A stretch of 64,000 nucleotides of DNA from Cellulomonas cellasea (GTDB lineage Bacteria > Actinomycetota > Actinomycetes > Actinomycetales > Cellulomonadaceae): NCBI RefSeq assembly GCF_030372105.1, contig NZ_JAUDBQ010000008.1, positions 62,001 through 126,000 on the forward strand, read 5' to 3'. Position numbers and translations under genes: made by a program. Under the pieces are notes generated by a model. That model saw nothing but the letters and a program-made list of their open reading frames with translations. It was not told the DNA's origin and did not search any database. This document shows positions 52,430-53,682 of the stretch, piece by piece (position 1 is the stretch's first letter; the number at the start of each line of letters is the position of its first letter).

Positions 52430-52954
52430 TCAGGCGGACCGGCTGACCCGTTCGAGCGCGCGGTCGGTGATGGAGCGGGAGCCACGGCCGATCGCGACGG
52501 TGCCAGACTGCACGATCTCGCGGACGCCGAACGGCTCCAACGCGGCGAGCAGCGCCGCGAGCTTGTCCGGGCCGCCCGTCGCCTCGATGGTGACGGTGTC
52601 CGGCACCACGTCCACGACGTGCGCGCGGAAGAGCTGGACGACCTCGAGCACGTGGGTGCGCTGCGCGGCCTCGGCGCGGACCTTGACCAGCAGCAGCTCG
52701 CGCTGCACGGACGCGCTGTCCTCGAGCTCGACGATCTTGATGACGTTGATCAACTTGTTGAGCTGCTTCGTCACCTGCTCGAGCGGCAGCTCGGCGACGT
52801 CGACGACCACGGTGATCCGCGAGATCTCCTCGCGCTCCGTGGGGCCGACCGCGAGCGAGTGGATGTTGAACGAGCGCCGGGCGAACAGCCCCGCGACCCG
52901 GGTGAGCACACCCGGCTTGTTCTCCACCAGCACCGAGAGCGTGTGCCTGGTCAT
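52430..52954 (-). CDS. ilvN: Acetolactate synthase small (regulatory) subunit
   Basis: IlvN activates IlvB and makes it sensitive to valine feedback. The 174-residue protein starts [37 protein letters not shown], a canonical ACT domain, with the second ACT-like half from about residue 80 ([14 protein letters not shown]). ATG 52952-52954 overlaps the stop of the racemase gene by four bases (ATGA), so IlvN synthesis is coupled to the racemase gene rather than directly to ilvB. Confidence 0.96.
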
Positions 52955-53682
52955 GCTGCACCTTCTTCCAGGGACGGGGCCTGCGGCGCGAGTGCCGCGT
53001 CGAGGAGGGCGTGGACGTGCAATGCCGTGCTGTCGAGCACGGGCACGGGGCTGTGCGTGGGGTCGTCGGGCGAGATGAGCATCGACAGCTCGGTGCACCC
53101 GAGGACGATGGCCTGCGCGCCCTGCTCGACCAGCCGCCCGATGATCGCGACATACGCCGCGCGTGAGGAGTCCAGCACCCGGCCGAGCGCGAGCTCCTCG
53201 TAGATCACCCGGTCGACCTCGGCCGCGTCCGCCCCGGTGGGCATGATCGTGGCCACGCCGCGAGCGGCGAGGCGAGCCGGGTACAGGTCCGAGGCCATCG
53301 TGAAGCGGGTGCCGAGCACGCCCACGCGCTCGACGCCGAGGCCGGCCACCGCGTCAGCGACCACGTCGACGACGTGCACCACCGGCAGGCCGGAGCCGCG
53401 CGCGACCTGGTCGTGGAGCAGGTGCATCGTGTTCGCCAGGATGCCCACCAACTCGGCGCCCGCGGCGCGCAACTGCGCCGCCTCCTGCTCGTACCGCTCG
53501 CCGAGCGTCGCCCAGTCACCGGCGCTCTGCAGCGCCTCGATCTCGGCGAACTCCACGGAGCGCAGCACCAGGTCGGCCGAGTGCAGGCCGCCGAGGCGCG
53601 CCTGCACCCCCTCGTTGAGCTGGGCGTAATAGTGCGCCGACGACTGCCAGGACGTGCCGCCGAGCAGTCCGATGCGGCGCAC
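52951..53682 (-). CDS. Aspartate/glutamate racemase family protein inside the ilv operon
   Basis: A 243-residue PLP-independent racemase-fold protein, end-to-end similar in pattern to E. coli Yge[42 protein letters not shown] and a C-terminal [10 protein letters not shown] with the catalytic cysteine. The first catalytic position, Thr in YgeA (CTNTMH) and Cys in most relatives, is Ala here (LANTMH). Two-base racemisation may thus be altered or lost. The GTG at 53680-53682 directly abuts the ilvB stop with no gap, and the stop overlaps ilvN. A role connected with branched-chain synthesis is inference from position only. Confidence 0.85.

Follow-up and report, generated by a model that had tools for sequence, protein, structure and literature searches.

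Between ilvB and ilvN, the genes for the two subunits of acetolactate synthase, Cellulomonas cellasea carries a gene for a protein of the amino acid racemase family, called X here. It was analysed within the window, i.e. the whole stretch of 64,000 nucleotides of contig NZ_JAUDBQ010000008.1 under study. Our reading, to which we give about an even chance, is that X works as a PLP-independent racemase with one catalytic cysteine, belongs to the EcL-DER/YgeA branch (TIGR00035) and is coupled to ilvBN, its activity being predicted. In this arrangement a racemase-family enzyme is tied to the first common step of Val, Ile and Leu synthesis by gene order, by frame overlap and probably by shared attenuation, and the tie to the operon allows a guess at the substrate, until now lacking for this protein, that can be put to the test.

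The features of the locus are collected in Table 1. On the minus strand of the window, the gene order is ilvD, ilvB, X, ilvN, ilvC, a gene for an ASCH-domain protein, leuB, ilvE and cimA. A preliminary description of this DNA had given the coordinates of X correctly, but without the strand. It had also reported a zero gap between the ilvB stop and the GTG of X, as well as an ATGA overlap with ilvN, and the junction bases bear out both: the ilvB stop (53685-53683) is directly followed by the GTG at 53682, and the TGA of X overlaps the ATG of ilvN (52954). The likely ilvN Shine-Dalgarno site falls in codons for residues 236-243 of X, which have a pLDDT below 50 in the structure model. Two neighbouring genes were also noted. 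The ASCH-domain protein (50637-51206) is encoded between ilvC and leuB, and a similar protein occupies the same slot in 6 of the 15 other X-positive loci. Upstream of ilvD, 57688-58350 (minus strand) encodes a pterin-4a-carbinolamine dehydratase domain fused with a glyoxalase-like domain.

Table 1. Features of the ilvB-X-ilvN locus (positions in the window)
Feature	Position	Strand	Remarks
Promoter-like site upstream of ilvB	55794-55765	minus	
Predicted Ile/Val-rich leader peptide	55713..55757	minus	14 residues, GTG start
Predicted leader terminator	55641..55664	minus	stem-loop, then T run
ilvB, acetolactate synthase large subunit	53683..55557	minus	NF005860 over cut-off
GGGAGGA, Shine-Dalgarno-like, before X start	53687..53693	minus	within last ilvB codons (CGG GAG GAC)
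X, amino acid racemase family protein	52951..53682	minus	243 aa, GTG start, Ala83/Cys196
GAAGAAGG, likely ilvN Shine-Dalgarno site (inferred)	52961..52968	minus	in X C-terminal codons, tail LEEGAA
ilvN, acetolactate synthase small subunit	52430..52954	minus	NF008864 over cut-off; ATG overlaps X stop (ATGA)
ilvC, ketol-acid reductoisomerase, next gene downstream of ilvN	51342..52370	minus	NF004017 over cut-off

With a threshold of at least 60% identity, an X homologue was found in 15 of 200 genomes of the family, its own included. Carriers were 3 of 7 genomes in its own genus, 9 of 19 in genus g9, 2 of 5 in g6 and 1 of 2 in g2 (totals of 7, 5 and 2 inferred). Outside the family, X was present in G586 (62% identity), the sole genome sampled from its order. 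Three overlapping draws, of 396 genomes from the order, 394 from the class and 396 from the phylum, gave no carrier at this identity beyond its own genome, G008 (already counted) and G586; weaker matches would fall outside their E-value limits (1e-30, 1e-62 and 1e-64). A plasmid search with X matched 235 records, all below 60% identity, and the single PHROG match has no named function. All 16 homologues sit between ilvB and ilvN; this arrangement, an alanine and a cysteine described below all recur in 16 of 16, which is therefore more than chance. An artefact confined to one strain is ruled out by the 15 family genomes and by G586 of another order, and the proposed locking of X into the acetolactate synthase operon is supported by an arrangement now seen in several genera and a second order.

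The junctions were then compared. The X stop overlaps ilvN as ATGA in all 16 loci. Relative to the ilvB stop, the aligned start of X follows with no gap in 4 loci and shares one base with it in 8. In the last 4 it comes 8-32 nt further downstream, and a start codon in frame with X stands at the ilvB stop, use of which would lengthen the N-terminus. Counting these, an in-frame start is present at the ilvB stop in 16 of 16. Read from the sequence, these junctions support a link between the expression of X and that of ilvBN.

Is X a functional gene? The dN/dS ratio was 0.10-0.33 in 8 pairs, compared to 0.015-0.143 for IlvN and 0.027-0.122 for a part of IlvB. These values indicate that X is a working gene under purifying selection; together with a frame that is open in 16 of 16, they rule out a decayed pseudogene. 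X evolves about 3.6 times faster than IlvBNC, and in 15 genomes its distances track IlvBNC distances with a Mantel r of 0.71. A tree was built from 83 rows, of which 16 are X, after removal of duplicate and near-duplicate loci and of rows shorter than 200 aa or below 38% identity. In it, X is a single clade (SH-aLRT 100, stem 0.63), apart from the 67 other homologues. In G586, ilvB is 72-74% identical, ilvN 69% and X 62%. Its X is nearer to the family X than IlvBNC distances predict, with a ratio of 1.29 against 3.61 within the family. This suggests either that X was transferred into the same slot, or that X distances are saturated.

X scored 133.8 bits against PF01177 (cut-off 31) and 171.4 bits against TIGR00035, amino acid racemase (cut-off 93.1). 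It remained below the cut-offs of the EcL-DER/YgeA equivalog NF007569 (216.7 vs 417 bits), of the glutamate racemase MurI TIGR00067 (25.4 vs 146.65 bits) and of the cysteate racemase CuyB NF052483 (103 vs 190 bits). As the preliminary description had it, X resembles YgeA along its length: YgeA/EcL-DER (5hqt, 5ell) aligns over nearly the full length at about 41% identity with a phmmer E of 1.8e-57, against 1.1e-60 for 3ojc, its Yersinia homologue. The structure model (pLDDT 92.3) had EcL-DER 5ell/5hra as best PDB matches (40-41% identity, TM 0.82-0.93); EcL-DER and the Yersinia homologue ranked first, then PH1733.

The active site departs from that of EcL-DER at one catalytic position. Ala83 of X, directly before NTMH, occupies the position of Thr83 of EcL-DER, and Cys196 in GCTEL is kept, which confirms both residues announced from the sequence alone (the Thr83/Cys197 numbering of EcL-DER is that of PMC12838360). 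X therefore has neither the Thr/Cys pair of EcL-DER/YgeA nor, its first position being Ala, the two cysteines of classical Asp/Glu racemases; its Ala/Cys pair is that of the Ala-type racemase Halocola RacX. Whether the Ala is conserved had been set as a check: Ala83 and Cys196 are each invariant in the 16 X homologues. In 71 other homologues the first catalytic position is Thr in 69 and Ala in 2; L056 and L057, outside this count at less than 38% identity, have Ser and Cys. Residues conserved to at least 95% in 87 sequences, X clade included, are N84, M86, H87, E163, C196, T197 and E198. Fixed in the ilv clade (16/16) and present in at most 15% of the 71 others are R3, T10, G25, D37, R41, L60, Y64, A83, L88, V105, L133, P135, L216 and L227. 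Cys82, which precedes the Ala83 position, is found in 58 of the 71 other homologues and in 3 of the 16 X. Elsewhere, Thiopseudomonas denitrificans (locus L008) has a separate YgeA-like protein (6001-6657) with Ala at the same position, encoded about 150 bases from an ilvD gene on the opposite strand (6807-8450).

The preliminary description had inferred from the Ala an altered function, possibly that of a decarboxylase or isomerase, or a regulatory role. The Ala is indeed invariant in the ilv clade, but Ala alone does not imply a non-racemase, as Halocola RacX is active with it. A distinctly unlikely variant is that X performs some other one-cysteine chemistry (decarboxylation, isomerisation or stereospecific proton exchange) on a pathway intermediate rather than on a free amino acid. 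One Cys with a small residue opposite is indeed the layout of arylmalonate decarboxylase as given in PMC4996985, and the clade has fixed residues of its own (T10, D37, R41, Y64, A83, L88, L133 and P135 among them, 16/16), which may or may not line the pocket. However, by eye against the published Gly74/Thr75-Ser76/Cys188, X has Ala83-Asn84-Thr85 and agrees at the Cys alone; at 15-18% identity, arylmalonate decarboxylase structures are a much poorer match to X than EcL-DER is, and an Ala-type racemase is known (PMC12838360). An arylmalonate-type decarboxylase is thus disfavoured because its defining residues are missing.

Loss of catalysis altogether, with X kept as a structural or regulatory partner of acetolactate synthase and placed for synthesis with IlvB and IlvN, we consider very improbable. 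The translational junctions on both sides of X would suit such a partner, as would its repeated loss and its faster evolution than IlvB and IlvN, but the catalytic Cys and the GCTE motif are kept in 16 of 16, unlike in a decayed active site, and close relatives have ilvB and ilvN without X. The suggestion of a purely regulatory protein is disfavoured because of these 16 intact Cys and motifs. Of two outcomes that the preliminary description had named as contrary to its ideas, same-slot homologues with Cys or Thr and full activity, and an arrangement limited to a single strain, neither was found.

Another possibility, which we also rate low, is that X is an ordinary Asp/Glu racemase supplying D-Asp for an A4-beta cell-wall bridge, its position in the ilv operon being incidental. 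A table in PMC8878594 lists D-Glu or D-Asp bridges, and some L-Asp, in Actinotalea and relatives. In the genome of the window, PF01177 is represented twice, by X and by a glutamate racemase (216.2 bits against TIGR00067, cut-off 146.65), so that no other aspartate racemase of the family is present. Yet this glutamate racemase already covers D-Glu, 10 of the 19 genomes of the largest carrier genus are without X, the position is the ilv slot in 16 of 16, and PH1733, with the same Thr10/Ala83, is inactive on Asp and Glu, as cited in PMC12838360.

Upstream of ilvB, the putative leader peptide, promoter-like site and terminator are laid out like the leader attenuator of C. glutamicum ilvBNC described in PMC11857589. 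The region gave a folding z of -3.42. Similar leader ORFs with Ile/Leu/Val runs were seen by eye in 13 of the 15 other X-positive loci, and not in L133 and L139. An Rfam search of 50500-58600 gave no match up to E 0.5, hence no leader family. The leader and terminator suggest that X would be made together with acetolactate synthase on branched-chain starvation.

To see what the slot looks like without X, we took ilvB-ilvN spacers from 50 family genomes out of the 185 without X; the selection spanned carrier genera and others and was not random. In all 50, ilvB is directly upstream of ilvN, with a spacer of 1-85 nt, which agrees, within this family, with the earlier remark that the two genes are usually adjacent. 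Two classes were apparent. In 37 genomes the spacer is 1-27 nt and none has an in-frame ORF of at least 9 codons joining ilvB to ilvN; 14 of these 37 are without ATGA at ilvN. In the other 13 it is at least 30 nt (30-85 nt), and all 13 have such an ORF, of 9-29 codons. These mini-ORFs start from 4 bases before to 5 after the end of the ilvB stop, finish in ATGA, and have EEGAA-like last residues. Before the slot ORF, a CGG codon that completes GGGAGGA was found in 28 of 29 genomes carrying X or a mini-ORF and in 1 of the 37 lacking both, a contrast that is not significant with the tree allowed for (2-4 independent pairs).

The mini-ORFs are best read as in-frame deletion scars of X that would preserve translational coupling. 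They could instead predate X, which would then have inserted into them, or be frames that lie open by chance between the two genes, and we hold this to be unlikely. In shuffled spacers (last 17 bases kept, one base of length jitter), the chance of such a mini-ORF per genome was 0.32-0.42, against 13 open out of 13; the 13 are not independent cases, and the test has at least 6 forced changes behind it. Compared to the 3′ end of X beyond the ribosome site, the spacers reached an uncorrected p ≤0.02 in only 5 of 13, a point for the alternative, with three of the other 8 having only 10-14 comparable bases; the same test gave 1 of 13 for the X 5′ end and 0 of 13 for its middle. The 26-29 codon mini-ORFs are similar in length in two genera, which also suits an older frame. 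On the other side, the L140 mini-ORF keeps ALLDAA of the X C-terminal helix and that of L148 begins MRR like X.

The phylogeny also bears on this choice. Genomes with X and with mini-ORFs alternate on the tree of IlvB (part), IlvN and IlvC, where the starred branches require X to have changed state at least 6 times. X formed one group in 0 of 200 bootstrap ilvBNC trees, and a quick tree of 66 rows agrees. Flank trees were compared to see if X and mini-ORF states group better close to the slot: changes of state numbered 6 on the tree of the ilvB 3′ flank and 8 on that of the ilvN 5′ flank, and 9 and 8 for the distant ilvB part and ilvC. An older or chance frame fits poorly with an X that is one clade and follows ilvBNC distances, while states alternate on the ilvBNC tree. 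Given this alternation and the agreement of distances, X most simply arose once in the group and was then lost in frame repeatedly. Some mini-ORFs are alike in length and letters across lineages (L088/L101, L095/L146), and therefore one deleted allele may have spread by recombination. In the same ilvBNC trees, the X-positive g6 genomes L129 and L132 do not group with the X-negative L090, L092 and L096, which hints at operon exchange. Missing from 185 of 200 family genomes and apparently lost repeatedly, X is therefore dispensable; this, like its faster evolution, speaks against our main reading. The apparent repeated losses, which left an in-frame relic behind, amount to a natural experiment on the need for coupled translation of the acetolactate synthase subunits.

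We propose the following scheme for the racemase reading. X would be translated as a third cistron: ribosomes ending ilvB would initiate X where ilvB stops or right beside that point, and those ending X would restart on ilvN at the ATGA overlap. Attenuation at the leader peptide would raise ilvB, X and ilvN together when Ile, Val or Leu is short. The slot would set ilvN translation, and the apparent deletions of X seen here leave a frame open through to ATGA. In the enzyme, Cys196 would be the sole catalytic cysteine, with Ala replacing the opposite acid/base; by analogy with EcL-DER and Halocola RacX, Cys196 may take the alpha-proton of the L-isomer, giving a bias for L-substrates, and water or a neighbouring residue would return a proton. 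EcL-DER favours L-forms according to PMC12838360 and PMC12661438. We are unsure of this bias for X, because YgeA (Thr83) is listed in PMC8142540 with equal efficiency on both homoserine isomers. Going by gene position, likely substrates would be neutral amino acids linked to the pathway, such as Val, Ile, Leu or a precursor like homoserine. A bolder version, improbable in our judgement, would make the ilvB-ilvN space a translation-coupling slot, where an ORF (racemase or 9-29 codon relic) read through to ATGA sets IlvN relative to IlvB, and the racemase a new one-cysteine branched-chain enzyme, made on branched-chain starvation as a stereochemical branch of the pathway.

The family and the Ala variant of X are known, and its operon placement and the relics are apparently undescribed: a racemase in an ilv operon was not described at title or abstract level among the matches listed, nor in the accessible part of PMC11857589. 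Among known systems, EcL-DER/YgeA (5ell, 5hra) shares with X the fold over nearly the full length, GG.SW.S, NTMH, GCTE and the second catalytic Cys. X differs from it by Ala83 for Thr83, Thr for Met10, Leu for Lys88, a score under the NF007569 cut-off, and its location between ilvB and ilvN. Arylmalonate decarboxylase has one catalytic Cys, a small residue opposite and the same superfamily fold, but Gly rather than Ala and Thr-Ser rather than Asn-Thr. PH1733 of Pyrococcus horikoshii (2zsk) has the same Ala, the Thr of GGT (Thr10) and GCTEL, at 32% identity; unlike X, it is archaeal and, as said above, reported inactive on Asp and Glu, a point against the racemase reading. RacX of Halocola ammonii has Ala at the first catalytic position (Ala79 there) and Cys at the second, and is a broad-specificity racemase: according to PMC12838360, it racemises 15 of 17 amino acids, Lys in both directions with an L to D bias, and its A79C variant has an approximately nine-fold lower forward efficiency. 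It differs from X in coming from the order Flavobacteriales, and the likeness is drawn from the published residues.
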